This document shows, one piece after another, positions 6,301 through 61,523 of a stretch of DNA of 64,000 nt. Where the stretch lies: the NCBI RefSeq assembly GCF_026914265.1, contig NC_069124.1:70976402-71040401 (forward strand), in the 5' to 3' direction. The position numbers and the translations under genes were made by a program. The DNA comes from Mya arenaria. Lineage: Eukaryota; Mollusca; Bivalvia; Myida; Myidae. Each line of letters begins with the position of its first letter. The first letter of the stretch is position 1. The notes beneath the pieces were generated by a model that had not been told where the DNA came from, did not search any database, and saw only the letters and a list, made by a program, of their open reading frames with translations.

Positions 6301-6785
6301 AAAAAGCAACACATTAATTTTCCCTATTTCCTCAACTGTACTCATTGTTAATTCCGGCTTAAGTTGATATCACACAAAATATGTAGCAAAATAAAGAACT
6401 TGTCACATATAGATTATTTCAAATGATGACTAAGATGTACAAAGATCTTCATGGAAACGGAACCAATTTTTACCCATCATGGGGCATGCACAATTTAAAG
6501 CAAATCCAGTCACTCCTGGATTGTCTCCTTACAAGAATAAAGTCATCCTTGGAGGAGAAGTGTGCCTAGTTCGGGGCTCGAACCAATGACAATTGGAACA
6601 CTTGCATAGAGCTCCACTGACTTAGCTCATTCATGTTCAAAATGACAGCCCAACATTTTAAGTATTACTGTATTGAAAATATTTTGTGAAATGCTTCCTG
6701 AATAAAATCACTGGATTATTGTGTGACAATTTAAAATTAAGCAACTCATTTTTGAACGAAGAATCAGGCCAATGATGTGTTTCAG

Positions 6786-6917
6786 ACTGGAGCTGCTGTA
6801 TGGAAGTATTCTGGTGTCTATAAATGAAGAATATGTTGATTTAGAGCGCCAGGAAGAGCTGACATTGAGAGAGGGAGATACTATAGCACTTATTCCTCCG
6901 ATCAGTGGAGGATAGAA
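6786..6917 (+). CDS. MOCS2A: MOCS2A terminal exon (molybdopterin synthase small subunit, MoaD-like), partial
   Basis: This exon follows a TGTTTCAG acceptor and encodes the C-terminal 42 residues of a MoaD-family protein, closing with GDTIALIPPISGG and a TAG at 6913-6915. The terminal Gly-Gly is the family's functional end: it is adenylated and carries the thiocarboxylate sulphur that MOCS2B uses to turn precursor Z (cPMP) into molybdopterin. The beta-grasp strands before it match the human protein in layout (a QEYVEL-like EEYVDL segment, then the xGDxIAxIPPISGG end). The donor GTAAGA begins two bases after the stop, at 6918, so the transcript continues into the MOCS2B exons. The 5' exons are not identified. 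The frame and the splice phase at the acceptor (first base completes a codon) are consistent with a genuine exon. Confidence 0.88.
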
Positions 6918-8157: not shown

Positions 8158-8268
8158 AAACTTGTGTTGTTATGGATGTGGTGGATATCACGGTTGACGC
8201 AATCTCGGTAGAGCAGCTGACCCAGCGTGTCTCCTCCCCCTCTTGTGGTGCTATCTCATCATTTCTAG
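8158..8268 (+). CDS. MOCS2B: MOCS2B first coding exon (14 nt leader, then ATG at 8172)
   Basis: The acceptor is TTTCCACAG, ending at 8157, and the donor is GTATGG at 8269. Bases 8158-8171 are the untranslated spacer between the two cistrons after splicing to 6917. Coding begins [16 protein letters not shown] and ends in SFL plus the first base of the glycine codon. Confidence 0.85.
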
Positions 8269-11200
8269 GTATGGTAAAACGATCGCCAAAAAGTACTCTC
8301 CGACATAGGTGATTATTTTGCCCCCCTTTGAAGATGTTGGTCGGTCAGTCGGTAGATTGGTTGGTCGGTACCTCCGTAGACCAAAGCTTGTTCAAGTGAT
8401 AACTAAATAATTCCTGGACGTATGGTCACAAAACTTGACATGAAGGTTGGGTATGACCAGTAGAAGACCCCTATTGATTATAGGGGTCATTGGATCAAAG
8501 GTCAAGGTCACAGTGACCTTTAATGGTAATAGGATTTTAAAGCTTGTCAGAGTGATAACTCAACAATGCCTAGACCAATGGTCATCAAACTTGACATAGA
8601 GGCTGGGCCTGACCAGTAGATGACCCCTATTGATTTGAGGGGTCATCAGGTCAAAGGTCAAGGTCATAGTGACCTTGAATGATAAAGGGTTGTCTGAGTG
8701 ATTACTCATCAATGCCTTCACCAATGGCCCTCAAACTTGACTTGGAGGCTGGGCCTGACCAGTAGATGACCCCTATTGATTTTGGGGGTCATCGGGCTAA
8801 AGGTAATGGTCATAGTGAACTTGTGTGATAAAATGTTGTCTTAGTGATAACTTGACAATTCCTGCACCCATGACTCTCAAACTTGACTTGGAGTCTGGGC
8901 CTGACCAGAAGATGACCCCTGATTTTGGGTGTCATCGGGTCAAAGGTCAAGGTCACAGTGACATTGAAGGCAAACTTAACAATTCATTGACCTACATGGT
9001 ATGGTCAGCAGACTTGCCATGAAGGTTGGCCCTGACTAGTAGATGACCACTTTCGATTTTGGTGGTGATCGGGCCAAAGTTCAGGGTGACCTTTAACGCG
9101 AAAAAGTTAACAAAGCTACTCCAAGTGATACCTCAACAATGTCTACCCCTATGATCATCATACTTGACATGGAAGCTGGGCCTGACCAGAAAATGACCCC
9201 TATTGATTTTAGGAGTCCTCACAGTGACCTTGAATGCAAAACTGTTCTTCGAGTGATAACTCGACAATGCCTGCACCCATGGCCCTCAAACTTGATTTGA
9301 GGCTTGGGTCTGACCTGTAGATGACCCCTTTTGATTTAGGGGTCATTGGGTCAAAGGTCACAGTGACCTTGAATGCAAAAAGCTCGTCTGTGTGATAACT
9401 TGACAATGCCTGCACCCATGACCCTCAAACTTGACATTTAGGTTTTGGGTGACCAGTTGATGACTCCTATGGATTATAAGGTCATAGAGTCAAAGGTCAT
9501 GGTCATAACTCATATTTATCATTAAAAATTTCATCATATTTACTTATTCCCTGCTTCAAAGAGGATACATTTTTATTTGCAAATATCAGTCATGTACCTA
9601 ATATCCTCACACTTTAAATGGTCATAATCTTAAAACTGCCTCAAAGGCATCCAATGTCAATGACAAATCAGCTGTCATTTCGGTCAATGCATATTTCATT
9701 CAATTGTCCAAATAATCCTGACAACATGGCGCTCAGGGGAGCGCTTATGTTTGACAAACATATACACTCTGACCTATTGTGGAGGAAATGATTAACCATA
9801 TTTTATTGTACATATTATAGAGCTACAAGTACATATAGCACATGTATGATGAAATATACAGCCATCACTTTTTGCTAGTATATAATTGGGTTCAGAGTAG
9901 CTTTTAAGAGGCCTAATTCAGTCATTAATTAGTTTTATTATCCCCAAATATGAACAAATAGTCTTGTCAGTGCTGACTATGCCTCTTAGATGATAAGTGC
10001 AGAACTGCGAACACCTCCTAGCATCAACCATTTCCAAGCATCATTAAGACATAATTGATGATTGCAAAAAAAACAGAATATAAAGATGAAGCACTGTCAT
10101 ACATAATCGTTAATTTTTCTATAAGCAATTAAAGATGCATATACATAGTAGCAGGTTTATTATGTTTTTATATGCAGGAACCACACGAGATAACTTCAAA
10201 GGTAAAAAGGTCACCCAGCTGGAGTATGAAGCTTATGAGCCAATGGCACGCAAAGAGATGTTGAAAATCTGTGCTCAGGTCCGCGAGAGGTGGCGTGTGG
10301 AAAATATTGCAATTGTACACAGGATTGGGTACGTCTAAAATGGACTGGCGTCCAAGTGTTAATGGTAGTATTTTAGATCGCTTTAATTTTCGTTAATTTT
10401 CGTTGTCCTTTTTAATAATTTTTTTCATTTTGGCCAATTTGATTGACACCATTATTTGTCATCATAAAACAACAGTTGAATATTTTGCTAGGATTTTAAT
10501 TTGCAACATAATCGTTTCTCAAGAAAATGTGATATTAAAACAATCTACAGTGGCTTTAGGATGATAACTTTTGTTTCAGTTAACATTCAAATTTATTCAG
10601 TACATATTATTTTATTTGGTATAGGGTAAATCACTCTTGTTATGCTATACCATGACTGGCAATGGTTAATCATCTTAAAAAAACTGTACATTTCTCATTG
10701 ATTCCAACATTTAAAATTACAAATATCTTTTCGCCTGTATATTGTAACATTTCTACTGTTTTCTTTAAAGCATATCTGCTTTTTGAAGACAAACTAAGGG
10801 ATGGTAGTAATATAAAGCCATGGTGTTGTGTAGTTTGTACGCAAAAGCTATAATGATAGTCATAATTCAGAAACCTTAAAAAATATTAAGCAGGACTTTT
10901 GCTACAAATCTTAACAATAGTATGCATATATATGTGTAGCAAGTTCATCACTCTGGCTATACGGTAATTTATTTTGAGTTTAATATGCTCTTAAATAAAT
11001 TGTTAGAACACTGACAACATTTGCATTGTTTCTGTTTGTCTGTTCCTCCATCCACAATTTTATCTTTTTCAAGACTAAATTTGGGCGTTCAAGACTAAAT
11101 TGTTGTTGTTGACATTGCAATGATCTTCTAAATAACTTTTAAATCATCGATAATATTAACCTCAAATTTCATTCGGGCCCCAATTTCTCAAAAGTTCTTA

Positions 11201-14200
11201 AGCTTAACAGGCTTAAGTAGCTTATTTCAATTAGCCAAAATACATAATTAAATTATATTTTGAATAATGAAAAATGGTTGAATGTAATTGACAGATTTAC
11301 AGATAATTGCTATCTAAAGTATAAACACTATTAAAGAAGTAAATATTATGCAAATTTTTGAAAAACAAAAACTTTAATCCTGTTATAAGAGACTTAAGAA
11401 TTCTCGAGAAATTTGGGCCAGTTGATCACAGTAATAATACAATCTTTTATTAAAAGTAAAATAACTGATTTCATAAATGTTATTAGATTTTTCAGTTTAA
11501 TACCGGTAGTTATATTCAATAAATAAATTCATTTTTAACATTTATGAATTAGGAATTGAATAAGGTTTCAAGTATCAATATATCACATTGCAATTTTGTG
11601 TGTAATACAAAAATTATAACCCTCTGACTAACTATTACCAAATAGCCTCCCTTTTTCATCAATATATAATGAAAGTTAAAGATTGCATTATGTTGAACGC
11701 CAATTTCTTGAAACGCTATCTTTCAAGGCTCTTATCACATAGGTGATGGCTCTAGTTTTCTCTGTATGAACCTGATTACATAATCTCTGATATATTTTCC
11801 CAGTGTGGTGCCAGTGATGGAGGCAAGTGTGGCTATAGTTGTGTCCTCTCCTCACCGGCGGGAATCCCTCGAGGCCGTGCAGTATGCCATTGATACTCTC
11901 AAGGCTTCTGTGCCCATATGGAAAAAGGTATTAGTCAGGCTGATAATAGTAATGCTTCGTCATAGTAATGGACTGCAGACTTTTATAATGTCCATCCAGT
12001 GGGAACTAAGCCCTGATGACCACAGGCACCAGGTGGACTCGACAGAGTCAATTTAAAAACTAGCTTAAAAGTAAGAAAGTTTTAAGTGTTGTTTGAATGT
12101 CAATGTTAACATGTATGTGGAAAATTATCTCAGATACATCATTTTCAACACAATGACTACTAGGATGATAAATAATAGATAAGTTAAACTTTGCAAAAGT
12201 GTTCATTATTTTCTTTTATGTTCATATATTTTTCATTTCCTGTGTTTTTAAAATTTTAAAATTGAAAGGTGCACTAACAAATACATTTGTTGGCACTCGT
12301 GTAAAAGCATGACTGTAAAATGATTCATGTAAGAAAAATGTCAGTACATTTTTAATGTCAGCAACACCTTAATTGATGACATTCAACACAGAGGAGTGGT
12401 ATGAAGATGGTTCATGCTCTCTTGATGATTTCTTTCATGAATGGTATGAAGATGGTTCATGCTCTCCTGATGATTTCTTTCAGGGGTGGTATAAAGATGG
12501 TACATGCTCTCCTGTTGTTGTTTTTCAGGAGCTGTATAAAAATGGTACATGCTCTCCTGATGAGTATGTCTCCCCCCATTCATATGGAGGCATATTGTTT
12601 TTGCCCTGTCCGTCAGTCAGTCAGTCAGTCTGTACGTCACACTTTGTTTTCACTCAATAACTATAGAATGCTTAGACCTAGCAACTTCATACTTGGTATG
12701 CTGATTGGTCATGACTAGTAGATGACCCCCATTGATTTTTTGATCAGTAGGTCGAAGGTCAAGGTCGCGGTAAACTTTAGATGAACAAATGGTTTCCGTT
12801 CAATAACTAAAGATCCTTTGGGTCCAGGAACATCATTCTTGATATGCTAGTTGTTCATGACTAGTATATGACCCCTATTGATTTTGAGATCCAAAGGTCA
12901 AGGTGGTGGTTACCTTTAGGTAAAAAACGATATGTTAGCGGTGACTTTAAGCTTAAAAATGGTTTCTGCTCAATAATTAAAGAACACTTGTACCCAGGAA
13001 CTTCATACTTGGTATGCTAATTGGTCATGACTAGTAGATGACTCCAATTGATTTTGAGATCAGTAGGTCAAAGGTCAAGTTCACCGTGACCTTGAGGTGA
13101 AGAAACGGTTTCCGCTCAATAACTAAAGAATGTATGCGCCCAGGAACTTCATTCTTGGTATGTTTGTTGGTCATGACTAGTAGATGAACCCTATTGATTT
13201 TGAGATCAGTAGGTCAAAGGTCAAGGTCGCCGTTACCTTGAGGTGAAGAAATGGTTACCCCTCAATAACTAATGAACGCTTGCACCCAGGAACTTCATAC
13301 TTGGTATGCAAGTTGGTCATGATAAGTAGATGACCCCTAAAGATTTTGTGATCAGTCCTTCAGTCAGTCAGTCAGTCTGTATGTCACACTTTGTTTCCAC
13401 ATAATAAATAAAGAACACTTGCACCCAGGAACTTCATACTTGTTATGCTAGTTGGTCATGACTAGTAGATGAACTCTATTGATTTTGAGATCAGCAGGTC
13501 AAAGGTCAAGGTTGCCGTTACCTTGAGGTGAAGAAACGGTTACCCCTCAATAACTAATAACTAAAGAACGCTTGTACCCAGGAACTTCATACTTGGTATG
13601 CAAGTTGGTCATAGTCCTTCAGTCAGTCAGTCAGTCAGTCTGTATGTCACACTTCATTTCTGCTCAATAAATAAAGAACGCTTCCACCCAGGAACTTCAT
13701 ACTTGTTTTACTGGTTGGTTGGTAGTAGATAACCCCTATTGATTTTGAGATCAGTAGGTTGGTTCATCTCCAATCCAAAATTACAAATTTCATGTCCATC
13801 ATTTATTTTTTCTCAGCTACGACCACACAATAGGGAAGACTAGTGCTTTTTCAAAAAAGCAATCTCTAGTTTCTTTCAGGAGCTGTATCAAGATGGCACA
13901 TGCTATACTGTTTGTGTTTTTCAGGAGCTGTATAAAAGAGTTCATGCTCTCCTGATGATTTCTTTCAGGAGTTGTATGAAGATGGTACATGCTATACTGT
14001 TGGCGTTTTTTAGGAGCTGTATAAAGATGGTACATGCTCTCTTGTTGTTGTTTTCCAGGAGTGGTATGAAGATGATACAATCTCTCTTGTTGTTGTTTTC
14101 CAGGAGCGGTATGAAGATGGTACAATCTCTCTTGTTGTTGTTTTCCAGGAGCGGTATGAAGATGGTACAATCTCTCTTGTTGTTGTTTTCCAGGAGCGGT

Positions 14201-15930
14201 ATGAAGATGGTACAATCTCTCTTGTTGTTGTTTTTCAGGAGCGGTATGAAGATGGTACAATCTCTCTTGTTGTTTTCCAGGAGCGGTATGAAGATGGTAC
14301 AATCTCTCTTGTTGTTGTTTTCCAGGAGCGGTATGAAGATGGTACAATCTCTCTTGTTGTTGTTTTCCAGGAGCGGTATGAAGATGGTACAATCTCTCTT
14401 GTTGTTGTTTTCCAGGAGCGGTATGAAGATGGTACAATCTCTCTTGTTGTTGTTTTTCAGGAGCGGTATGAAGATGGTACAATCTCTCTTGTTGTTGTTT
14501 TCCAGGAGCGGTATGAAGATGGTACAATCTCTCTTGTTGTTGTTTTCCAGGAGTGGCATGAAGATGATACAATCTCTCTTGTTGTTGTTTTCCAGGAGCG
14601 GTATGAAGGTGGTACAATCTCTCTTGTTGTTGTTTTCCAGGAGCGGTATGAAGGTGGTACAATCTCTCTTGTTGTTGTTTTCCAGGAGCGGTATGAAGAT
14701 GGTACAATCTCTCTTGTTGTTGTTTTCCAGGAGCGGTATGAAGGTGATACAATCTCTCTTGTTGTTGTTTTCCAGGAGCGGTATGAAGGTGGTACAATCT
14801 CTCTTGTTGTTGTTTTCCAGGAGCGGTATGAAGATGGTACAATCTCTCTTGTTGTTGTTTTCCAGGAGCGGTATGAAGATGATACAATCTCTCTTGTTGT
14901 TGTTTTCCAGGAGCGGTATGAAGATGATACAATCTCTCTTGTTGTTGTTTTCCAGGAGTGGAATGAAGATGGTACAATCTCTCTTGTTGTTGTTTTCCAG
15001 GAGCGGTATGAAGATGATACAATCTCTCTTGTTGTTGTTTTCCAGGAGCGGTATGAAGGTGGTTCATGCTCTCTTGTTGTTGTTTTCCAGGAGTGGAATG
15101 AAGATGTTACATGTTTTCCTGTTGTTGTTTTCCAGGAGTGGTATGAAGGTGGTTCATGCTCTCTTGTTGTTGTTTTCCAGGTGTGGAATGAAGATGTTAC
15201 ATGTTTTCTTGTTGTTGTTTTCCAGGAGTGGTATGAAGATGGTACAATCTCTCTTGTTGTTGTTTTCCAGGAGCGGTATGAAGGTGGTTCATGCTCTCTT
15301 GTTGTTGTTTTCCAGGAGTGGAATGAAGATGTTACATGTTTTCCTGTTGTTATTTTCCAGGAGTGGTATGAAGGTGGTTCATGCTCTCTTGTTGTTGTTT
15401 TCCAGGCGTGGAATGAAGATGTTACATGTTTTCTTGTTGTTGTTTTTCAGGAGAGGTATGAAGGTGGTCCATGCTCTCTTGTTGTTGTTTTTCAGAAGTG
15501 GAATGACGATGATTCATGCTCTCTTGTTATTGTTTTCCAGGAGTGGTATGAAGATGTTACATGTTTTCCTGTTGTGGTTTTCCAGGAGTGGTATGAAGAT
15601 GGTATATGCTCTCTTGTTGTTGTTTTCCAGGAGTGGAATGAAGATGGTACATGCTCTCTTCTTGTGGTTTTCCAGGAGTGGAATGAAGATGGTTCATGCT
15701 CTCTTGTTGTTGTTTTCCAGGAGTGGAATGAAGATGGTTCATGCTCTCTTGTTGTTTTCCAGGAGTGGAATGAAGATGGTACATGCTCTCTTGTTGTTGT
15801 TTTCCAGGAGTGGAATGAAGATGGTTCATGCTCTCTTGTTGTTGTTTTTCAGGAGTGGTATGAAGATGGTACCTGTTCGTGGAAGGAGAACAGTGAGTGT
15901 TGTGGACCCAAGAAGTCAAACCCTGCTTGA
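8172..15930 (+). CDS. MOCS2B: MOCS2B, molybdopterin synthase catalytic subunit (MoaE-like), 4 coding exons, 149 aa
   Basis: Joined exons 8172-8268, 10178-10328, 11804-11927 and 15853-15930 give 450 nt with matching phases (1, 2 and 0) and GT/AG borders throughout. The protein carries the MoaE core: [28 protein letters not shown], an HR-x-G turn, and the C-terminal [14 protein letters not shown], which holds the lysines implicated in catalysis in bacterial MoaE. MoaE binds cPMP and receives two sulphurs from thiocarboxylated MoaD. The start at 8172 is the first ATG in this frame after an in-frame TAG at 6884-6886. The N-terminus is shorter than the human 188-aa protein. The ATG lies 16 spliced nucleotides after the MOCS2A stop. 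The last intron (11928-15852) contains the acceptor-bearing 45-bp array, so the exon 4 start given here is the minimal (3'-most) choice. Confidence 0.88.
8385..9510. repeat. Tandem repeat, about 145-bp period, ~8 copies, with nuclear-receptor-type half-sites
   Basis: Units contain a 'gaccagtagatgacccctattgatt' core (near 8458, 8610, 8757, 8902, 9032, 9183, 9313 and 9452) followed by GGGTCAAAGGTCAAGGTCA and often CAGTGACCTT. The array lies in intron 1 of MOCS2B. Three units hold the perfect palindrome AGGTCAnnnTGACCT (8505-8519, 8661-8675, 9355-9369). The same repeat superfamily forms the block at 12.6-13.8 kb. It is non-coding. Confidence 0.85.
10178..10328 (+). CDS. MOCS2B: MOCS2B second coding exon
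   Basis: The acceptor is TATGCAG, ending at 10177, and the donor is GTACGT at 10329. The exon encodes the conserved MoaE stretch from [20 protein letters not shown] to the HRIG turn and carries the cPMP/MoaD-interaction region of the family. Confidence 0.9.
11175..11419. mobile_element. MITE with GGGCCC-type inverted termini
   Basis: The left end GGGCCCCAATTTCTCAAAAG, followed by TTCTTAAG, is mirrored at the right end by CTTAAGAATTCTCGAGAAAT, followed by TTGGGCC. This makes imperfect terminal inverted repeats of about 28 bp around an AT-rich, non-coding middle of about 190 bp. A clear target-site duplication was not seen. It lies in MOCS2B intron 2. Confidence 0.7.
11804..11927 (+). CDS. MOCS2B: MOCS2B third coding exon
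   Basis: The acceptor is TTTTCCCAG, ending at 11803, and the donor is GTATTAG at 11928. The exon encodes [20 protein letters not shown] through SVPIWKK. The terminal lysine pair belongs to the catalytic lysine region of MoaE. The exon ends in phase 0, so the next exon must begin on a whole codon. In this family that codon is Glu (KKE), which matches the GAG start of the real last exon and of nearly every repeat unit. Confidence 0.9.
12389..12566 (+). repeat. Upstream fragment of the 45-bp splice-acceptor minisatellite (4 units)
   Basis: There are four diverged 45-bp units of the pattern GAGTGGTATGAAGATGGTTC, then a 'tgctctcctg' segment, a pyrimidine-rich stretch and TTTCAG. In the MOCS2B frame they read as EWYEDGSCS-type peptides. 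They are cut off from the main array by the unrelated repeat block at 12,567-13,875, which was probably inserted into an older, continuous array. Confidence 0.8.
12567..13875. repeat. Tandem repeat block (about 130-bp units with CAGT runs) interrupting the 45-bp array
   Basis: Units contain 'aacttcatacttggtatgct', 'catgactagtagatgacccc' and 'gatcagtaggtcaaaggtca' segments, with CAGTCAGTCAGT runs near 12,610, 13,360 and 13,620. It is related to the 8.4-9.5 kb block. It separates four upstream 45-bp units from the main array, which suggests insertion or expansion inside it. Confidence 0.8.
13876..15852 (+). repeat. 45-bp minisatellite built from the MOCS2B intron end plus exon start (~44 units)
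   Basis: From 14,059 to 15,852 there are 40 units (38 of 45 bp and two 3 bp shorter), preceded by about four diverged units from 13,876. Each unit reads GAG-x-GG-TATGAAGATGGTAC, then TCTCTCTTGTTGTTG and TTTTCCAG: the first 27 bases or so of the last MOCS2B exon followed by a pyrimidine tract and an AG. Because 45 is a multiple of three and no stop occurs in the MOCS2B frame from about 14,014 to 15,930, every unit offers an in-frame alternative acceptor. Units before about 15,060 read [15 protein letters not shown]. Later ones include 90-bp pairs alternating GGSCSL and NEDVTCF types, showing recent higher-order amplification. Confidence 0.93.
15853..15930 (+). CDS. MOCS2B: MOCS2B last coding exon (minimal form)
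   Basis: It starts GAG after a TTTTTCAG acceptor and encodes [20 protein letters not shown], then KSNPA and TGA. The STWKGNKECFW-like end of human MOCS2B aligns with [10 protein letters not shown], which identifies this as the genuine terminal exon. Its first half is nearly identical to the repeat units upstream, so it is the apparent progenitor of the array. Confidence 0.87.
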   Translation, partial: EWYEDGTCSWKENSECCGPKKSNPA

Positions 15931-19619: not shown

Positions 19620-20004
19620 CCATGAGCACGGATCAACCGATAAAGATTAGGCTTTCATTGTTACCTTGACCTTGAGGTATGGATGCGGGTCGATTGCGAC
19701 ACATCGACTAAGTATCGAACTCATACGCCAAATAATTTTAAAATCCCTCAATGCATGACAAAGAACTTTACGCATTCGATAATAAACTGGAACTTCGAAG
19801 TTGGGTCGTGGGTCTTTCATGCGACACATTGCCTTTATGTATACCGAACACAAAGTTACAGCCCGAACACGATCAACTTTACTATATCTGTTCATATATG
19901 AAGTGCGACATTGATCCATCGGGTAGGGTCCTGAGTATTGCACACGACACGTCGCTTTTATGAACTGAACACATGTCCCGGTCAAGTCATTTAAAATCCA
20001 CCTG
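19620..20004. repeat. Diverged dispersed repeat with GCGACACAT-type motif
   Basis: Segments such as 'aggctttcattgttaccttg', 'gtcgattgcgacacatcg' and 'aaaatccctcaatgcatgac' recur in altered form at 29.1-30.1 kb. It flanks the 3' side of glutaredoxin copy 1 as the 29-30 kb version flanks copy 2, so it belongs to the duplicated segment. The GCATGACACATCGCC phrase is the apparent seed of the neighbouring 28-bp array. Confidence 0.6.
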
Positions 20005-20583
20005 TGCATGACACATCGCCCTTATTCCCCTATGCATGACACATAGCCTTTATCCCCCTGTGCATGACACATCGCCCTTATTCCCCTGTGCATTACACAT
20101 CGCCTTTATCCCCCTGTGCATGACACATCGCCTTTATCACCCTGTGCATGACACATCGCCCTTATCCCCCTGTGTATGACACATCGCCCTTATCCCCCTG
20201 TACATGACACATCTCCCTTATCCCCCTGTGCATGACACATCGCCTTTATCCCCCTGTGCATGACACATCGCCTTTATCCCCCTGTGCAAGACACATCGCC
20301 CTTATCCCCCTGTGCATGACACATCGCCTTTATCCCCCTGTGCATGACACATCGCCGTTATCCCCCTGTGCATGACACATCGCCGTTATCCCCCTGTGCA
20401 TGACACATCGCCTTTATCCCCTGTGCATGACACATCGCCTTTATCCCCCTGTGCATGACACATCGCCCCTATTCCCCTGTGCATGACACATCGCCTTTAT
20501 CCCCCTGTGCATGACACATAGCCTTTATCCCCCTGTGCATGACACATCGCCTTTATCCCCCTGTGCATGACACATCGCCTTTA
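20005..20583. repeat. 28-bp minisatellite, about 20 copies
   Basis: The consensus unit is CCCCCTGTGCATGACACATC plus GCCTTTAT. Copies are very similar, with CTTTAT/CCTTAT/CGTTAT variation. It ends at GCCTTTATGTATAGG, which matches a phrase of the surrounding dispersed repeat. It lies just 3' of glutaredoxin copy 1. Confidence 0.95.
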
Positions 20584-20854
20584 TGTATAGGATCACAATT
20601 TTTATTAACAAAGTACAGTCGACCTTATGCAATGTTTATTAAGATGAAATGGACAATTTATTATAAAATAGAATTTCAGCATGTACATGTGAAGGTTATG
20701 AAACTGGTAGACATTATGAAAATGTGTTTGATTTGAACAAATGTCAATTAAAAAAGGCAACAAAACAACTTGATTTAGGTTACAAAGTCTAATTTACGAC
20801 GAACACGTAATGAGTAAGAGCAGCATGACACAGATATTATCACAGACGTGGAGA

Positions 20855-20953: not shown

Positions 20954-23165
20954 CTGACGTGAAAAGTAAATTATTGTTTATTTCATGAAAAATTGAAATT
21001 TCAGGATAAACACGTGTCAAACCTGTAAATGACCCCTCCACCGCCCTCTTTAGTATGCGACGCATAAGTGAAAGGTAGTGCTGTTGTAGGGTAACTCAAT
21101 AATAATAAGTTTTCGGTACGCAAACTCACATGCTTTTTACACTATTACATAGGATGCGGAAAAACAATGGTACAGTTCTGATACATATATGAACACGTAT
21201 TATTTCTTGCCAATGATCAAGTATCACAATGAATTATTTCAATGTATGTAATTATGTTGAATGAACTGAAATAAATCTCTTTTCTGTTCTGTTCTTTTAC
21301 GCATGTGGGGGGGGGGGGGGGTTATACCATATTATAAGCATATGTTTTTTTTCAGCTGCGTTACTGCTAAAAGCAACTTGTGTTTATGTGAAAGGGAGAA
21401 TAAAAGCTGCATACAAATTAATGTCAAAGAGTTGGGACTTGTTTTATAATTTCCATGCAATATAAATGATTATACATGTGCATGTATGTTGTTATTTTAA
21501 TGCAGTCGACCGTGACACTACTACATATAATTATATACTCGACAAAAAGGTATTTTTGTGTCTTGCCCCTAGTTATATCTTTCTGGGGCTATAATGATAG
21601 TATTATACTTCTTTTATCCATACATATTTTGGTGAGGAATACGAATGATTTAATTTATATTTATAAGTGTTAATTAAAACGAAATCAGAATCATTGAAAC
21701 ATTACTATTTATGAATATTGTAATACAAACGTTTGATTTAAAAAAACACACCAGTTAAATAGCTAGCCTCAATTATGGTTACAAGAAATTACTACTTATA
21801 AATGTACGCTATAGCTCTGTCTGCCATGACAAACGTCATTTTCATCAAAAATAACAATCAGCTATACAAAGTAAGTAAGTTTACCGTGCCATTTTAAAAT
21901 TTAGAGTGCACTCCCTGTGACCTTTCATTTTTGCGTTTCGAAACAAAGGTCAAAGCAACTGACCGTAGCTATTAATATTTGTGTCGTGTCTGCAAAAGCT
22001 GCAAAGAATATGTTCATAACGCATACATAAGAGGAAAAAAATAACCCCTCAATTAATAGGCTATATCGCTATTCAAAATGAAAACTATTTGTTCATAACG
22101 TAATTACTGATTAATTACTGAAATAAGACCATGGTGATAATCTAGGTTTACTTTTTAAGTTAATATAGGAGTAAAATATGCCCAAAATGAACCATTTCGG
22201 ACTCGAAATTGTTAAAAAATGAGGAGTACCGCCAACACTTTAATTAAAAAAAAAATCGGTTCTAAGTGAAAGGTGCAAGTCAAAAGGTTACGCCCCCTCT
22301 AACGACAACTCATGGAGTCGCCCATGCGTAGCTAAGGTTTGTTTACTATTTAAACGCGTTGTCGCATATAATTTGTTTTTGCCGAGAACACTTAAACTTG
22401 ATAGATAGGCATTCGCGGTGTATAAGAACGGGTTTGCATTGTGAAATGTGTGCGCAGGTGAACAATACATGACAATAGCTGGGTTAAAACTTAAAAAAAA
22501 AACATAGTAAGGGAATCGATAGCCTACACCGAATGATTTAAATAATAATAAAACAATATATCGGCCTAATAGAATACTTGCGTATTTGTATGTGTAATGT
22601 CTGGAGATGTTTCGCCCATGGTACTTTCGTTATAAGAGTATTACATAAGGACCAAATAATTTACATGTACAGAAACACGTGTATGTGCAACAGAGTATGT
22701 GTGTAACAGTGTGTGTATTTATTATTCTGTTTAATGATTTGTATTATACATGCGTCATTTGTGTACACATACTATATATGTACATATGACTATGTTTATC
22801 TTGTTTGCAGTTCATGTTTGTATTGTATCTTTGCTTGTCTTTATCTATGGAGGATAACAAGAACAAAGTTCAGAGTTCATAATATAAGAATCATCCGTTA
22901 CTTGACTTAACTCTAGAAGAATGAACAATAAACATGTCAAAGTATGACTTACCGACGATCCCCCCGTTATTTTACCGAGTTCCTTCTGTATGGCCTCACA
23001 GTCAGGTTCATTCTCGATCTCCCAAACCTCGTAGTCGTCCGGTGACAGGTTGTATTTTCCCAGTGCCTTCTTCGCCTTGGTGCAGTACGGACAGTAAGAC
23101 TTGGAAAACACCATCACCTTCTTTCCGTTAATTTTCGCCTGAATCTTTTCACTAACAGCTGCCAT
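20855..23165 (-). CDS. Glutaredoxin (dithiol, CPYC), copy 1, two exons, 103 aa
   Basis: Exon 1 is 23165-22953 (71 codons) and exon 2 is 20953-20855 (32 codons plus stop), joined in phase 0 with a GTAAGT donor and an ACGTCAG acceptor. The protein has the dithiol active site SYCPYC at residues 24-29, the cis-proline TVP-type glutathione-binding motif (here SSVPRVF across the splice) and the GGGDET helix cap near the C-terminus: all the landmarks of a class I glutaredoxin at normal length. Such proteins reduce glutathione mixed disulphides using GSH. There is no evident signal peptide, so it is probably cytosolic. An AATAAA on the - strand at 20635-20640 is a likely polyadenylation signal, and an equivalent lies at the same place in the other two copies. 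Confidence 0.93.
21255..21296 (+). mobile_element. Possible LINE 3' tail remnant in glutaredoxin intron
   Basis: The AAATAAATCTC segment followed by TTTTCTGTTCTGTTC resembles the (TTCTG)n end of the LINE on the - strand at 38.36 kb. It is a short fragment with no coding part. Confidence 0.3.
22953..23165 (-). CDS. Glutaredoxin copy 1, exon 1
   Basis: Encodes residues 1-71, starting [20 protein letters not shown] and ending KITGGSS before GTAAGT. It holds the CPYC redox centre. It uses the first ATG of the conserved block, as copy 3 does. Confidence 0.93.
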
Positions 23166-24865
23166 GGTAGATTTTTACGTATAAATTCACACACAATTTA
23201 TGATGATCAATCTTGACCCAATGTGCGTCGTCCACTGATAGAATAAGGTCTCTATATAGGAAACTATACACACAGCGAAATCAAGCCAATACCCTATGAT
23301 TAATCCCTCTTTACAACAAGGTATCGGTCAAAAATCCGGACGGTTTTGAATATAAATACAATGGACAGAAATGACTGGTTAACCCGGATATAGGAACTTC
23401 AATATGATCTGTACTAGATATTGTTCTACATTTATGGTCTCAGAGTTAACTTTTGTACTATAGATGTGATTTTATTTAAACTTGAAAACATTGTAGAAGT
23501 ATGTTGCGCAAACACAACGACCTCTTATCTCAATGTCAATGTCAAACAGATCAAATCATACAAATATCACATGACTCATGAATAACATAATGCAGCGTTT
23601 ATTATTAAGCTGAAATGTTACAACATGCTTTATAGGCCAACACATACAATCTTCAATCTGCGTGAAGGTTTAACAGGGATAGTGACATGACAGTGAAATA
23701 GCAAATCTACAGCTAATAAGAATGTTAATCTTATGAAATGAATGTGTCCTTATTCGGCATCTGAGCAAGTGTAAAGATAACTAAAGTAGTATAAATAAAA
23801 CATCACATATATTGATGTCAGTTAAATTTCATGGTTGTGTCAATAAAGCTAAAAGCGTTAAACACATAACTTCTTAGTTAAACTATTTTAAAGGAAGACT
23901 AAAGATTTATAAACGTTTGTCGTGTAGGCCAAATACATTAATATGGTTTAAGGTAAGCGATGCAAAAGTCGATTGAGGGACCGAAATTTTAAATGTTTTA
24001 AAACATCCACTTCTAATTAGTTTTGATGTTCAATATTTATCAAAACTGATTTAATATCCTGAAATAACATGAAACACTGTAATTTAGAGTTGAACATTTT
24101 TACGAAATAATATTTTATCAGATTTCCAATCAAAAAGCATTTACATTTTCCAGGAAATGTCTTAATACAAAAATAATATGTCTGTGAGTCAATTTTATTA
24201 ACTACCCAATTAATATATATGCATATTGTAACCCGGAAATGAATTTCATCCACGAAATTTCATTATTTTTCTGAATAACTTTCTTATTTGACAAGATATC
24301 ATCAATAGCTCTCAAGACATTGTTGAATAGGTAGACTGGGGAATTTTGACATGAAAGCGAAGTACTAATGTCGACAGACCTTTTCGTAATAATGTGAATT
24401 CTTTTTGATAAACAAAATCTGTTAAAATCTTCTTCTTTTTGTAAAATTTGTTTAACTCCTAACTAACCCAAAACATGTCACCAAGAAACAATGTTTCACT
24501 CTCCAAAAAGATCGTTCCTCAAAGCTAAATAAAACATGTACAAATGTATGTTTTAAACATTTTATTTTTTTAGCTTCCCCACCAATTTTTGCATCACTGC
24601 CGGCCCTTAAGGTTTTGTTGTCATATTTCACTAAAACATAGACAAACAAGGAGAACCTATATCAGTTTTCGCTCATTTGACAGTGTGTACATATTCTGAC
24701 CGTTTGTGGGATATTAAAATGTTTATCCTTCCCAATAATGAGATTTTGTGGTGACAAGCGAAACAATTTTAATGCTTTTTTCATTTAATTGATTTTATAA
24801 TGTATTAAGGTAATTTTCAGTCGTAAGCCGGCCACTACAACTCACACCCTTTTCCTTTACCCATC

Positions 24866-27800
24866 ACTAGGATATATAGTTTGGTATACAACCCCTAGAG
24901 TTTATCATGTATACGTCCCGCTACGACAAACAGTGTTCAAACCTCTAGAGTTAACATGTATACCTCCCGCTATGCTAAACAGTGTTTAAACCCCTAGAGT
25001 TAACATGTATACCTCCCGCTATGCCAAACAGTGTTTAAACCCCTATAGTTTCACATGTATACCTGCTGCTAGGACAAAACATTGTTTAAACCTCTAGAGT
25101 TAAACATGTTAACCTGCCGCTAGGACAAACAGTGTTTAGATCTGTAGAGTTAAACATGTATACCTGATGCTAGGACAAACATTGTGAAAACCCCTAGAGT
25201 TTAATATGTATACCTGCCGCTAGGACAAACAGTATTTAGATCTGTAGAGTTAAACATGTATACCTGCCGCTAGGACAAACAGTGTTTAGACCTCTAGAGT
25301 TAAACATGTTAACCTGCCGCTAGGACAATCAGTGTTTAAACCTTTAGAGTTAAACATGTTAACCTGCCGCTAGGACAATCAGTGTTTAAACCTTTAGAGT
25401 TAAACATGTTAACCTGCCGCTTGGACAATCAGTGTTTAAACCTTTAGAGTTAAACATGTTAACCTGCCGCTAGGATAATCAGTGTTTAAACCTTTAGAGT
25501 TAAACATGTTAACCTGCCGCTTGGACAATCAGTGTTTAAACCTTTAGAGTTAAACATGTTAACCTGCCGCTAGGACAATCAGTGTTTAAACCTTTAGAGT
25601 TAAACATGTTAACCTGCCGCTAGGACAATCAGTGTTTAAACCTTTAGCGGGTGAGAGTGGTCTAGTGGTATAGGTGTCCGCCTCTCACCCAAGAGGTTGT
25701 GGGTTCGATCCCCACCAGGGGTACTTTCTCATAGCTTCTCAAAAAAAGGACACAGTACTGGTTTCTGCCCAGGAAACGGACTCGAGAGTGATTCTATAAG
25801 CTATCAGCTTTCGTCACAATCGAGCTAAAAAAAATTAGTATAAACCAAACCTTTAGAGTTAAACATGTTAACCTGATGCTGGGACAAACAGTGTTTAAAC
25901 CTCTAGACTTAAACATGTATACCTGCCGCTAGGACAAACATTGCGTAAACCTCTAGTGTTTATCATGTATACCTGCCGCTAGGACAAACGTTGTTTAGAC
26001 CTGTAGAGTTTAACATGTATACCTGATGCTAGGACAAACAGTGTTTAGACCTCTAGAGTTAAACATGTTAACCTGCCGCTAGGACAAAAAGTGTTTAGAC
26101 CTCTAGAGTTAAACATGTTAACCTGCCGCTAGGACAAACAGTGTTTAGACCTCTAGAGTTAAACATGTTAACCTGCCGCTAGGACAAACAGTGTTTAAAC
26201 CTTTAGAGTTAAACTTGTTAACCTGCCGCTTGGACAAACAGTGTTTAAACCTTTAGAGTTTAACATGTATAACTGCCGCTAGGACAAACAGTGTTTAGAT
26301 CTGTAGAGTTAAACATGTTAACCTGCCGCTAAGACAAACAGTGTTTAAACTTTTAGAGTTTAACATGTATACCTGATGCTGGGACAAACAGTGTTTAGAC
26401 CTCTAGAGTTAAACATGTTAACCTGCCGCTAGGACAAACAGTGTTTAGACCTGTAGAGATTAACATGTTAACCTGCCGCTAGGACAAACAGTGTTTGGAC
26501 CTGTATAGATTAACATGTTAACCTGCCGCTAGGACAAACAGTGTTTGAACCTCTAGACTTAAACATGTATACCCGCCGCTAGGACAAACATTGTGTAAAC
26601 CTCTAGTGTTTATCATGTATACCTGCCGCTAGGACAAACATTGTTTAGACCTGTAGAGTTTAACATGTATACCTGATGCTAGGACAAACATTGTGTAAAC
26701 CCCTAGAGTTTAACATGTATACCTGCCGCTAGGACAAACAGTGTTTAGATCTGTAGAGTTTAACATATATACCTCCCGCTACGACAAACAGTGTTTCGGC
26801 CTCTAGAGTTTAACATGTATACCTCCCGCTACGACACACATTGTGAAAACCCCTAGAGTTTAATATGTATACCTGTTGCTAGGACAAACAGTGTTTAGAC
26901 CTATAGAGTTTAACATGTATACCTGCCGCTAGGACAAACAGTGTTTAAACCCCTAGACTTAAACATGTATACCTGCCGCTAGGACAAACAGTGTTTAAAC
27001 CCCTAGACTTAAACATGTATACCTACCGCTAGGACAAACAGTGTTTAAACCTTTAGACTTTAACATGTATACCTGCCGCTAGGACAAACAGTGTTTAAAC
27101 CCCTAGACTTAAACATGTATACCTGCCGCTAGGACAAACAGTGTTTAAACCTCTAGACTTAAACATGTATACCTGCCGCTAGGACAAACAGTGTTTAAAC
27201 CTCTAGACTTTAACATGTATACTTGCCGCTAGGACAAACAGTGTTTAAACCCCTAGACTTAAACATGTATACCTGCCGCTAGGACAAACATTGTTTAAAC
27301 CTCTAGACTTAAACATGTATACCTGCCGCTAGGACAAACAGTGTTTAAACCCCTAGACTTAAACATGTATACCTGCCGCTAGGACAAACAGTGTTTAAAC
27401 CTCTAGACTTAAACATGTATACCTGCCGCTAGGACAAACAGTGTTTAAACCCCTAGACTTAAACATGTATACCTGCCGCTAGGACAAACAGTGTTTAAAC
27501 CTCTAGACTTAAACATGTATACCTGCTGCTAGGACAAACAGTGTTTAAACCCCTAGACTTTAACATGTATACCTGCCGCTAGGACAAACAGTGTTTAAAC
27601 CTCTAGACTTAAACATGTATACCTGCTGCTAGGACAAACAGTGTTTAAACCTCTAGACTTAAACATGTATACATGCCGCTAGGACAAACAGTGTTTAAAC
27701 CCCTAGACTTAAACACGTATACCTGCCGCTAGGACAAACAGTGTTTAAACCTCTAGACTTAAACATGTATACCTGCCGCTAGGACAACAGTGTTTAAACC

Positions 27801-28348
27801 CCTAGAGTTTCACATGTATACCTCCCGCTACGACAGACAGTGTTTAAACCCCTAGACTTAAACATGTATACCTGCTGCTAGGACAAACAGTGTTTAAACC
27901 CCTAGAGTTTATCATGTATACATGCCGCTATGACAAACAGTGTTTAAACCCCTAGAGGTTATCATGTATACCTGCCGCTAGGACAAACATTGTGAAAACC
28001 CCTAGAGTTTATCATATATACCTGCCGCTAGGACAAACAGTTTTTAAACCTCTAGAGTTTAACATGTAAACCTGCCGCTAGGACAAACAGTGTTTAGACC
28101 TGTAGAGATTAACATGTAAACCTGCCGCTAGGACAAACAGTGTTTAAACCTCTAGAGTGTAACATGTATACATGCCGCTAGGTCAAACAGTGTTTAAACC
28201 TCTAGAGTTTAACATGTAAACCTGCCGCTAGGACAAACAGTGTTTAAACCTCTAGAGTGCAACATGTATACCTGCCGCTGGGTCAAACAGTGTTTAAACC
28301 CCTAGAGTTTATCATGTATACCTCCCGCTAGGTCAAGCATTGTTTAAA
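24866..28348. repeat. 50-bp minisatellite, about 65 copies, interrupted by a SINE
   Basis: The unit reads ACCTGCCGCTAGGACAAACA, GTGTTTAAACCTCTAGACTT, AAACATGTAT. Copies run from diverged edges (24.87-25.2 kb and 27.8-28.35 kb) to near-identical internal copies. Between about 27.0 and 27.75 kb, CCCTAGACTT and CTCTAGACTT versions mostly alternate, giving a 100-bp higher-order pattern. The units before the SINE (25.3-25.64 kb) form another homogeneous subfamily with AACCTGCCGC and CTTTAGAGTT. No coding sense is apparent. Confidence 0.96.
25648..25846 (+). mobile_element. tRNA-Glu-derived SINE inserted in the 50-bp array
   Basis: The head resembles tRNA-Glu(CTC): an A-box-like TGGTCTAGTGGTATAGG, a CTCTCACCC anticodon-loop region and the B box GGGTTCGATCCCCACC. 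The body contains GTACTGGTTTCTGCCCAGGA and the tail is short and A-rich. Direct repeats AAACCTTTAG at 25638-25647 and 25847-25856 are the target-site duplication. The body may be one of the conserved central domains known from mollusc SINEs, but I could not verify which. Confidence 0.88.
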
Positions 28349-38351: not shown

Positions 38352-41300
38352 GTGGAATAACAGAACAGAACAGAACATAAATTGTATTCGACTTAAGCAT
38401 AAAAAGCTCATCGTCACAACACTATGTATAGAAATAATGCATGGCATGTGACAATTATAACATAAGTTCTATTAATAAATCAAGTTTGATATAAGTATTG
38501 TGAGAGTGTGTATAACAATAACAAGACTGTTATCGATATAAAGGTATAATATGAAAAGGTAATGATTTCGGTGATATATAGATCTATATTTATATCTCTC
38601 TCTATATAAATACTGCTCCTCGTTGATTAATACAGCCGCAAGTTCATGCTGCGTGGTACATACAACTTTGTGGCTAACTGTGTAAGGATATTAATATTAC
38701 AAAACAAACAACAACAACAAAAACACACACACGCACACACACACAAAAGGAACAAGAATATTTGCACATCTCGTATGTCCTAAGGATCTACAGATTTAAG
38801 TTCGAACACTACAGTTTATGATACAATCAACAAAACAAAGGCAAAAACATAGCAAATATTTATACTATATTAAGGAATCACGTAATTTGAAGGACTTATC
38901 ACAGTAAAGCACTAACTTCCTTAGGATGGTTTGGTTATAACTTTGCATTAAAACAATATATTTCATCAAACTGGTATGAGTGTAGTAATACTTCAGAATA
39001 CATTGACGTCTAAGGTCCGCATATACTTGACATTTGAGGACGAAATGAAACTCGTTCTCAATATCATTTAAATTACAGAGTGTACATTTTCTATTATTCC
39101 TAGGAACCTTATTGTGTCGACCTATTTCTATATTTAGTTTATGGGATGATAAGCGTAATTTAGATAAAATACTTCTGTACTTTGTATTTTCAACAGGACT
39201 GAGATATGAGGATTGTTCAAAATTTGTCTTAATATCTTTGACTACACCTAGTGACGAAGACAAGTCTAACCCAGACCTCCAATTGCTGATATAAATATCT
39301 CTGAGTCTACATTTTAGTACGGGAACAAATACGTCCATTTTTACCGACTCATGGTATAACCATAATTCATAAAGACCAGATGATTGGAGAATGTCCTCAA
39401 GCTTTGATGCCCAGTTGTAGAAGAATGATTTTCAACACTATAATTTTGATCATGTAATATAACATTTAAAATGCAATTATCTTCCTTGACTATATGAAGT
39501 TTACAAAACTTTTTGTGGACTCTTTCTACCACGTCCGAATTTATATACCCCCAGACTTCAGAGGACTGATACGTATGCACCAAAAAGATTAAACATTATA
39601 TCTATTGGCACTTTAATATTACGGACTAGTGCCAGCAAAGAGTGAAATGATCTCAACCCCTTTCCAGCTTAAGTTTTTGTTGCATGCATAAATGCACCGC
39701 CACTACTAAATACAATTCCTAAATAATTAAACGAGCTAATAATTTCCACTTCCTTATTGTCATAAAACCATTTATCATTAATACCTAGTCTTTCACCCTT
39801 TCTGCACACCATTACCTTAGTCTTATCTATATTAACGGTGAGGTTCCATTTGCGACAGTATGAATGTAAACTATTTAGAGAATTCTGCAATCCTGCCTTA
39901 GTCTCTGATACAATAGCCGCATCGTCGGCAAAAAGCAGCAAATCAATTCAAATATGGTCAATGTTAATTCCGACGTCAAGGTTTTCTTGTAAATGCATTT
40001 CAATATCATTAAGAGAAAAAAATATCGGCGAGGATATCTCTCCTTGAAACAGGCCAATGTCACTATTAAAAAAATCTGATAATGTTCCCAAGTGTTTTAC
40101 ACATAGATTCACTTCATTATACATTGATCTTACTAGGGACAAAACTTTACCATCGATTCCCAACTAAATAAATTTATACCAGAGTCTGTTTCTATCAATG
40201 CAATCGTAAGCTTTTTTATAATCAATAAAACAACAGTAAAGCTTTTTTTCATTCAAACTGCTTTTGAATCAATGAATGCAAAATAAAAACCGGATCCACA
40301 GTACTGTACTTATTTTTAAACACGAATTGCGCATCTGTTAATAGACTATTTTCCTCCGCCCACGCTTTTAGTCTTTCATTCAATATAACAGTGAATAATT
40401 TTGAAAAACAGCTAGTAAGAGTTATCCCCCTATAATTATTTGGATCTGATTGATCACCCTTTTTATGGATTGGGATAATAACACCAGATGCCCAAGAACT
40501 TGGAAATGACTCAATGTCCAATATATGATTAAAAAAAGAATTCAATGGCCCAATGATTAGTGGAACTGATACCTTAAAATACTCGTAAAATACATTGTCG
40601 ATAGAGGCTGCCTTATTTGAGCCTAGTATCCAATTGCTCTTTTAATTTCATCATTTATGATAGGTGCATCCAATGAATCAAACGTAACATTATGTTCTAC
40701 CTCTGCATCAAACTGGCCAACAAAATCATCATTGTCATCATTATCACGAGAGTCAACACCTGCCATGAGGTTACTAAAAAAAGTCCGAAATTCCTCGTTA
40801 GTGATATTATCGGCACCTTTTACCATTTTCGATGTTTAAATATTTTCCAAAATTCTCTTGGGGTCTTTTGTCTTAGACCATTCATTTTACGACAACGTGC
40901 ATAGTTAAATATATTTTTAGACTTTCGACACTGATACTTGTAGTCTTTCTTCGCGCTATACAAAGATGCTCTATCAATATCAGAATGGTTATGATTAAAT
41001 TGACGCACTGCATTTTTATATATTTCATATTTATGTTTACGCAAATCGTCAAACCAATCCTGTTTCCTATTTCAATCATGTTTCCGACATTTCTGTTTTT
41101 AGATGTTTTACGAAAATACTAATTTCCGTTATCACATTTTTTTTTGGGTAAAAATCGATGTCAATCTATCAACATTCCCTTCCCCGCTAATCTCAGTATT
41201 TATATCATGTATCAGACTATCAATATTTGGTGTTATATCCCTAACAAAAGAATCCGTGAATTTTGTATCAAATTTATAAAATGTGAATTCATTATTTCCA

Positions 41301-41928
41301 TCGCTTGGATACCGATGCACTGTTTTATTTTAAATGAGAAGGACAGAGGATGGTTAAAAAACGTATTAAAATCCCCGACTGTGAAATCTGCAATCAGATC
41401 AAAATTATCATGGTGTGTCAACAAATAATCAACTACACTGGCCCCGTTATAGGTCATACAGGTAAAATTCCCACGGTCTCCTGGCCATCGACCGTTAACT
41501 ATACGCTGATTGGTTGCCTTGCACAGGTCAAATAAGTATTCACCAAAGCGATTGGAAGTGAAATCTCGCGAGACGCGAGGCGTAGGTGTATCTATGGCAA
41601 TTACGTCATTTACATTTATACTACGATCGCATTGAATGAAATCCGCTTTACTACTAGTCCTACTATTTAAATCGCCCGACAAAAATATTTTCCCACGTTG
41701 GCTAAACAATAAAATATCTTGTTCTAAATGGGTAAAAATGTCAACATTATACATGTTATGAACCGGATATAACTCCGGAGCAATGCATGTAAAGCAAATA
41801 TATAGATCATCATCAATATGGAAGAAGTTTTTATCTAGTCTTATCCATATAATACTATCAATTGTGTTTTTTATTAAATGCACACCATTTCGAATGTCAT
41901 CTTTATTAACTTGAAAAGCTTTCTCCAC
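38352..41928 (-). mobile_element. LINE (non-LTR retrotransposon), ORF2, 5'-truncated and decayed
   Basis: Reading down the - strand: apurinic endonuclease C-terminal half (41928-41233, with GKIFLSGDLNSRTS), a linker (41320-40820), reverse transcriptase (40545-39669, with VIIPIHKKGDQSDPNNYRGI, LFQGEISSPIFF and the catalytic LLFADDAAIV), and a C-terminal domain with the C-x2-C...H zinc-knuckle-like end (CTLCNLNDIENEFHF, 39338-38865). The frame changes several times, so it is not functional. The 3' end is a (TTCTG)n tail, seen on + as CAGAACAGAACAGAAC at 38361-38376. The N-terminal half of the endonuclease is missing. The layout fits the Jockey/CR1-type group; clade not settled. Confidence 0.85.
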
Positions 41929-42440
41929 TCAAAATATATTAGAAATCAATTATGAATTGAACTATATTAAAAAAATAAATTTTATTAGGAATAAACGTTG
42001 AAATAAATTATAGCTGCATTAACTTCATGGTAATACTTCTAAAATAGTAAAAATACTGCAATTTTGTTTAAAAAAAAACAGAGAAATAATTCCTACATTC
42101 CGAAAGTTTTGAAAAATACTTATACATTTGAATCAACATTGAACGTTTAATAGCTATAATGAAAGAAAAATAAAATGTCCATTTGCAAAACTGGGATTTA
42201 CTTTCATAATTATCAGATATATTATGCATTTTTATAAAGCAAGTTTGTCTCTCAAAAAATCTTCTTCTATTTTTTATGGGCTTTTCCTTTCTTTTTTTAT
42301 TATTAGTTTCGCCTCATTCCTTAATTTCTATATAAAAAAGTAGCAAAACAATTGGTTTTTATATGAAAAATAATATTTTTATAATTTTCAAATGTTCTCC
42401 AAGTGTAGTTGTATGAAATGCTTTTTATACAAGTTTGAAT
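41929..42440. other. AT-rich gap between LINE and Gypsy resumption
   Basis: I see no coding or structural feature. It probably contains the junction where the nested material ends and the older fossil resumes. Confidence 0.4.
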
Positions 42441-48714: not shown

Positions 48715-49632
48715 CCCTATTCAGAGCTACCGCGCTCTAGCTACCGCACTCCATTCGAAGCTACCGCACTCCATTCAGAGCTACCGCACTCCATTCAGAG
48801 CTACCGCACTCCATTCATTCAGAGCTACCGCACTCCATTCAGAGCTACCGCAATCCATTCAGATATACCGTACTCCATTCAGAGCTAACGCACTCTAGCT
48901 ACCACATTACTTTTAAAGCTACCGCACTTCATTCAGAGCTACCGCACTCTATTCAGAGCTACCGTACTCCATTCAGAGCTATCGCACTCTAGCTACCGCA
49001 CTCCTTTTAGAGCTACCGCACTCCATTTCGAGCTACCGCCCCTCATTCAGAGCTACCGCACCCCATTCAGAGCTACCGTACTCCATTCAGAGCTACCGCA
49101 TCCCATTCAGAGCTACCGCCCTTCATTGAGAGCTACCGCCCTCCATTCAGAGCTACCGCAACTTATTCAGAGCTACCGCCCTTCATTTAGAGCTACCGCA
49201 CTCCATTCAGAGCTACCACACTCCATTCAGAGCTACCGCCCTTCATTAAGAGCTAACGCACTCCATTCAGAGCTACCGCACTCCATTCAGAGCTACCGCC
49301 CTCCGTTCAGAGCTACCGCCCTCCATTCAGAGCTACCACACTCCATTCAGAGCTACCGCACTCCATTCAGAGCTACCGCCCTCCGTTCAGAGCTACCGCA
49401 CTCCATTCTGAGCTACCACACTCCATTCAGAGCGACCACACTCCATTCAGAGCTACCGCACTCCATACAGAGCTACCATACTCCATTCAGAGCTACCACA
49501 ATCCATTCAGAGCTACCGCCCTCCGTTCAGAGCTACCGCACTCCATTCGGAGCTTCCACACTCCATTCAGAGCTACCGTACCCCATTCAGAGCTACCGTA
49601 TTCCATTCAGAGCTACCGCACCCAATTCAGGA
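48715..49632. repeat. 20-bp minisatellite, about 45 copies
   Basis: The unit is AGAGCTACCGCACTCCATTC with point variation (CCGCA/CCACA/CCGCC, TCCAT/CCCAT/TCCGT). Every third unit returns to the same reading frame, so long open frames appear by chance. It lies 3' of glutaredoxin copy 3. Confidence 0.96.
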
Positions 49633-50987: not shown

Positions 50988-50999
50988 TGTAAATAGTTT

Positions 51000-60940: not shown

Positions 60941-61070
60941 CTAATAGTTCATAGCCCGTGTTGAAACATATTTTGGTGAAAACGAACAACAAAGAACCAT
61001 ATATCTGTATGAAACATGGAAACATTATACACTGGTTAAACATGTTGTATGTAACGGCTCGGCTAAGAAA

Positions 61071-61523
61071 ATGGTTGTAGTTTCGGCCATGGCAATTAGT
61101 GACATGTTCCTACGAAGTGGTGTGCTCTTACAAAGCAAGGCACGGTCGTGTGCAGAACACATAAAGAACGGCTTCTTTTTACCGTCCATCTGCAATGAAG
61201 AACATTTTAAGTCCAATCTTACCCAACCAACAACAATGAGTGGATCAGAAGTGACCCGTCTTCTCATGAGGTTTTTAGAATCTAAAACCAGCACAAAACT
61301 TAAGTTTGACCCGCCAGGTAACATCAGCCCTGAAGATTACTTAAACTTGACAGGTCTCACCAAGGATCAGTTCGATGACCTCACATCCTTCGCAACAGCT
61401 GAAGATTTACGTCATTCTAGGGTACGGTCACTCAGAAGTTGTATCGCAGTTTTACTGGTTAAACTTCGGACTGGCCTTGGTAATGCCATTCTTGGAACAC
61501 TCTTCGGCATGAACCGTTTTCAG
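61071..61523 (+). CDS. Transposase exon 1
   Basis: 151 codons from the chosen ATG. Ends NRFQ before GTATTA. The helix-rich segment with [15 protein letters not shown] and [20 protein letters not shown] resembles the helix-turn-helix region that precedes DDE_Tnp_4 domains. Confidence 0.8.

Follow-up and report, generated by a model that had tools for sequence, protein, structure and literature searches.

The window analysed here is a stretch of 64,000 nt in which a MOCS2B gene, with the end of a MoaD-like coding stretch ahead of it, carries before its last exon a tandem array composed of the end of its own last intron and the start of its own last exon. The features of this locus are listed below with their positions in the window.

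6778–6915, plus strand: 3′ part of the coding sequence for a MoaD-like protein (MOCS2A), with IPPISGG as the C-terminus before the stop (Pfam ThiS, E = 3.5e-9; GG-stop)
8158–8268, plus strand: first coding exon of MOCS2B with the ATG; AG/GT borders, spliced product matching MoaE and 5mpo
10,178–10,328, plus strand: second exon of MOCS2B; AG/GT borders, MoaE and 5mpo match
11,804–11,927, plus strand: third exon of MOCS2B, ending with VPIWKK in phase 0; donor GTATTA at 11,928
12,394–12,563, plus strand: old 5′ block of three full units and a cut one, the first without AG (ending in CAT); from Tandem Repeats Finder and 27-mer matches
12,564–13,869, no strand assigned: 1.3-kb insertion of other repetitive DNA with a period of 146 bp, inside one unit; the joined flanks give an intact unit end
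13,870–14,013, plus strand: old units in which the frame is disrupted (one unit measures 44 bp, and TAG stands at 14,011); from the in-register parse
14,014–15,852, plus strand: contiguous in-frame array of 41 units; in each, 27 nt resembling the start of the exon precede 18 nt of intron end (15 in two units) that include CAG
15,853–15,930, plus strand: coding part of the native last exon of MOCS2B; AG border, within the 5mpo match, TGA at 15,928–15,930

The four exons of MOCS2B, found with AG/GT borders, encode 149 aa, and a poly(A)-like ATTAAA at 15,953 follows the last coding exon. In the spliced product, residues 7–117 match the Pfam family MoaE (PF02391; E = 1.7e-42), and the best PDB match is human MOCS2B (5mpo; E = 7.2e-52, residues 2–137). 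Both the family domain and homology to a solved MOCS2B are thus present, confirming the gene identity given in the original prediction. The exon 3 donor had been put at 11,928; the GT does occupy 11,928–11,929, and the exon itself ends at 11,927. The last intron is in phase 0, and its junction corresponds to residues 124/125 of the protein. The Pfam match stops earlier, at residue 117, and the match to human MOCS2B runs on directly beyond the native junction to residue 137.

Cut in register with the splice site, the contiguous array consists of 39 units of 45 bp and two of 42 bp, and CAG is present in every one. The predicted composition of a unit (an intron end with CAG plus about 27 nt of exon start) was borne out, as were the diverged units expected upstream, which lie at 12,394–12,563 and 13,870–14,013; the tandem array also stands, but its predicted count of 40 units, all of 45 bp, does not. 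Unit types in the array start with GAGCGG, GAGTGGAAT or GAGTGGTAT. The KKE junction, expected in all copies, is retained by 38 of the 41 units, the other three starting with GTG, GCG or AAG. The predicted module EWYEDGTxSLVVVFQ differs from that of the array core, but EWYEDGT and EWNEDG forms were found towards the array ends. K and R are scarce in the modules. Tandem Repeats Finder reported a main block at 13,877–15,872 (score 2802; 44.5 copies with a period of 45) and, apart from it, 3.8 copies at 12,392–12,563. An exon-type 27-mer, with up to three mismatches allowed, matched 33 times in the window, always within 12,394–15,879 and with the native exon included, and not once in 100 shuffles; chance is excluded as the origin of the exon-type copies. 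That the intron end and exon start of MOCS2B stand here in tandem is confirmed as a real observation and, judged from the letters, the array originates from the MOCS2B intron/exon junction.

The frame of the older units is broken in part by a unit of 44 bp (13,925–13,968). Because joining the flanks of 12,564–13,869 by script restored an intact unit end, the 1.3-kb stretch was inserted into an older array. A 23-mer of its 146-bp repeat had no match in prokaryotic and viral contig collections, and a 23-mer of the array had none in the viral contig collection, results that carry little weight for this DNA. The array (14,014–15,852) is asymmetric between the strands, with a GC skew of 0.32 and an AT skew of −0.35, a bias that might promote R-loops and destabilise the repeat.

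Repetitive and mobile DNA was also detected elsewhere in the window. Three more long minisatellites lie at 19,996–20,584 (28 bp × 21), 24,890–28,348 (50 bp × 69), and 48,739–49,630 (20 bp × 45). Remains of mobile elements at 40,252–45,141, 54,811–55,125, and 60,948–62,542 include reverse transcriptase, integrase core, DUF3504, and DDE_Tnp_4 with its HTH, four of the six Pfam matches being below the Pfam cut-off. Two glutaredoxin-like exons on the minus strand (22,848–23,174 and 50,703–51,026; Pfam E = 1.3e-10 and 2.4e-13) are about 28 kb apart and perhaps represent a duplicated gene. In the glutaredoxin exon at 50,703–50,774 (minus strand) the donor GTAAGT is immediately followed by a (CAT)n run, so that a microsatellite begins within the first bases of the intron; near 22,950, the related exon also has the donor GTAAGT, but no (CAT)n run follows it.

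Among the 41 units, 26 distinct variants were found. The core of the array (14,059–15,045) is nearly uniform and the ends are diverged; within 15,046–15,450 there is a higher-order repeat, in which units five apart have 0.75 mismatches on average versus 7.38 for neighbours. Two differences from the native exon are common to all 41 units and to the six old units checked, and the real exon is not homogenised with the array. These features are ordinary minisatellite hallmarks and argue against simple duplication during assembly.

Tandem repeats over an intron/exon border, many units of which carry splice signals, have been published from lancelets as mirages. In the parts of PMC3087553 and PMC3902484 used here, they are described for the globins BflGb6 and BflGb9, Adh3, troponin C, and PGBD5; boundary units escape homogenisation, and RT-PCR suggested regular, undisturbed splicing. 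BflGb6 has 3 or 6 units of 150–160 bp each, depending on the haplotype, and the units of Adh3 measure 10–72 bp (same parts, PMC3087553 / PMC3902484). Like the mirages so described, the MOCS2B array has border-spanning units in register, each joining exon-like sequence to an intron end with its splice signal, and its uniform core, diverged ends, and unhomogenised exon correspond to concerted evolution with the boundary excluded. It is unlike them in its 41 units of 45 or 42 bp, which, in the single haplotype covered, are in frame without a stop and stand before the last exon. As border-spanning repeats of lancelets are published, the array was filed as mirage-type.

Two human systems are related in part. 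The minisatellite of IFI6 (6-16, G1P3) supplies multiple splice donor sites and length variants (PMC4526556, citing Turri 1995, in the part used here). Its units thus also carry a splice site, but on the donor side and with reported use of alternative sites, whereas the MOCS2B units derive from an acceptor and are known here from DNA alone; a donor-like GTATGA does occur in the core unit of the array and also in the native exon. In genes of human segmental duplications, border repeats are described as a possible source of new introns, with alternative transcripts in many cases (PMC2812944, in the part used here). There as well, minisatellite expansion alters the exon/intron structure, but the internal repeats average 30-bp units × 4 and are read as intron gain (PMC2812944, same part). 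To the original prediction, no case in a molybdenum cofactor gene was known. By titles and abstract starts, none was found among the papers listed: 10 of 11 on MOCS2 and molluscs contained no such array, and a search with 'bivalve' and 'minisatellite' gave nothing. However, the same kind of array has been published in other genes, and the MOCS2B array is not a wholly new kind; it is new in its copy number, its in-frame unit, and its gene.

As had been predicted, phase 0 has no stop between 14,014 and the native TGA; the nearest upstream in-frame stop is the TAG at 14,011. In-frame acceptors leading to the native C-terminus were likewise found, but in other numbers than the predicted 41 or so with 0 to 40 modules: 42 acceptor AGs (14,013 to 15,852) are in frame, and the predicted product of each choice is a MoaE that stays in frame and has 0 to 41 modules. 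Frame-breaking changes were found upstream of 14,014 only, a possible sign that the frame is of importance. As evidence of coding, the open frame was rejected: in 14,014–15,852, plus frames 0 and 1 are equally without stops, plus frame 2 has 48, and the minus frames have 8, 5, and 7, a 429-aa minus-strand ORF overlapping the array. A random 15-codon stretch of the window's composition is stop-free in about 33% of cases; 3.3–6.1% of changes make a stop, and 25 changes leave no stop in 21–43% of cases. With the +1 frame likewise open and stop-free outcomes this frequent, the open phase is weak evidence.

For the analysis of selection, 25 allelic changes were classified by hand from 26 extra alleles, two adjacent sites being counted as one change. 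Synonymous changes make up 4 of these 25 and 2 of the 19 in the exon part, neither a significant deficit nor a significant excess, and at the level of sequence there is no sign of purifying selection on the protein within the array. Variable sites are not significantly different in number between the exon-like and the intron-like part (15/27 versus 6/18, p = 0.22). Within the exon part, variable sites are rarer at third codon positions (2/9) than at first and second positions (13/18; p = 0.037), the reverse of purifying selection, which could be a hint of diversification. The ancestral-type unit encodes EWYEDGTCS as the native exon does, with 3 differences, all of them synonymous; this share exceeds that of the changes within the array (Fisher p = 0.011, a post hoc comparison with a reference unit of the analyst's choice), and 3/3 against 4/25 suggests protein constraint on the native exon and not on the array.

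Acceptors were scored with a simple matrix of splice-site frequencies. The 40 array acceptors scored range from 5.5 to 9.5 (mean 7.46), all above the other three acceptors of MOCS2B (2.7–3.7), and among AGs outside the array on the plus strand only 15 of 3,110 reach the score of the lowest array acceptor. The terminal acceptor at 15,852 scores 7.50, with 1 of the 40 array acceptors higher, and is not singled out by strength. Acceptor 14,058 and each later one are preceded by 15–17 pyrimidines in 20 positions. Seven positions of the acceptor core are invariant in all 41 units, compared with 24 of 45 unit sites overall (p ~ 0.008, the positions having been picked post hoc), and this invariance could reflect selection for acceptors. 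Folding of three stretches (z = 0.70, −2.18, and −0.50) gave no consistent signal of RNA structure hiding acceptors.

The motif yTNAy is branch-point-like and is present 24 nt upstream of the terminal acceptor. It was found at none of 22 core acceptors versus 8 of 18 in the 3′ block, the last one included (p = 0.0006, a contrast that is not independent because the core units share recent ancestry); acceptors 14,013 and 14,058 were in neither group. The array core is poor in yTNAy. Elsewhere in the window, a fraction of 0.67 of the AGs with comparable scores have the motif too, so that carrying it does not set the terminal site apart. The older acceptors at 12,483 and 13,968 have it as well, and their predicted tails are altered or truncated (truncated for 13,968); if the gene works, these acceptors would therefore be mostly skipped or tolerated.

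The interpretation given in the original prediction is supported in part: the gene, the phase-0 intron, and the composition of the unit stand, and use of the many acceptors, a splicing buffer, and a selected variable tail are hypothetical. Probably, the array is a mirage-type minisatellite, a passive expansion tolerated before the last exon of a gene that uses its terminal acceptor most. A 45-bp segment, with 18 intronic and 27 exonic nt around the final 3′ splice site of MOCS2B, would have been duplicated, and the duplicate would then have been enlarged by ordinary tandem-repeat turnover. Its position ahead of the last exon, together with a unit length divisible by 3 and the lack of stops in phase 0, may explain why the array is tolerated; with the MoaE-domain match complete upstream, use of other acceptors would lengthen or change the C-terminal tail only. 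Most transcripts would be spliced via 15,852, and some would leak to other copies.

The main rival to such a passive mirage is a ladder of isoforms, in which many acceptors are used and MoaE receives C-terminal extensions in 15-residue steps. The 42 in-frame acceptors, the pyrimidines ahead of them from 14,058 onwards, and matrix scores above those of the gene's other three acceptors speak for such use, and human IFI6 takes downstream repeat units as splice donors (PMC4526556, in the part used here). However, the closest precedents, the lancelet mirages, are reported to splice regularly (PMC3087553 and PMC3902484, in the parts used here), no core acceptor has yTNAy, and the modules are without purifying selection, which leaves the ladder a rather unlikely alternative to the passive mirage. 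Less likely again is a length-variable bank of modules, in which the spliceosome would choose among the 42 acceptors, adding 0 to 41 beta-strand-like 15-residue modules to a tail that varies between individuals.

A selected repeat tail would mean that an early in-frame acceptor is used and that the modules form a useful, variable, beta-rich extension. Three frames of the repeat were scanned against Pfam, and three matches exceeded the cut-off. Phase 0 matched ATP-grasp_3 (36.3 bits, cut-off 23.2), FHBP_C (29.3, cut-off 28.1), and Tk-SP_N-pro (22.7, below 26.5). In a single minus frame, BRCA2DBD_OB2 exceeded its cut-off (41.1 against 27) and three further matches fell below theirs, as did the one match of the +1 frame. 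These matches were judged spurious, being short stretches of unrelated families summed over repetitive sequence. For 15,046–15,927 in phase 0, AlphaFold2 with a single sequence predicted beta-strand (pLDDT 81.4, pTM 0.73), and for almost identical DNA read in the +1 frame helices (pLDDT 66.7, pTM 0.21). The beta-strand model is a hint only. The five phase-0 models spread in pLDDT from 81.4 to 33.9; a PDB fold search with it gave 433 matches at E ≤ 10 and none at E ≤ 0.001. The intact frame of all 41 contiguous units and the low variation of third codon positions agree with a selected tail, but the scarcity of synonymous changes is not significant and the conserved native tail would be displaced hundreds of residues from the enzyme, so that we consider a selected repeat tail improbable.

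Just as doubtful is a role as splicing regulator or buffer, with redundant or decoy acceptors setting the speed or level of last-intron removal. Its arguments are the acceptor core, invariant throughout the 41 units, and six older units that also end in AG (12,483 to 14,013). However, one old unit lacks the AG, redundancy lifts selection from any single copy, and the invariance is accounted for equally well by a core that was homogenised recently. An array inflated or misordered by assembly error is most improbable, given the ordered sub-structure of its 26 variants, a window without any N, and the other long minisatellites in it, even though one lancelet mirage was aberrantly assembled in a draft genome (PMC3087553 / PMC3902484, in the parts used here).

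If the host is a bivalve, as the original prediction took it to be and as such repeats and base composition would suggest, minisatellites spanning an intron/exon border extend beyond lancelets; were it a lancelet, the array would just be one more of the mirages. In number of units, the MOCS2B array greatly exceeds the globin mirages (3 or 6) described in the parts of the lancelet reports used here. Its dozens of near-identical in-frame acceptors are a natural test of 3′ splice site choice, by the first AG, by proximity to the branch point or by terminal-exon definition, and the array is also a natural test of how intron sequence turns into coding sequence.
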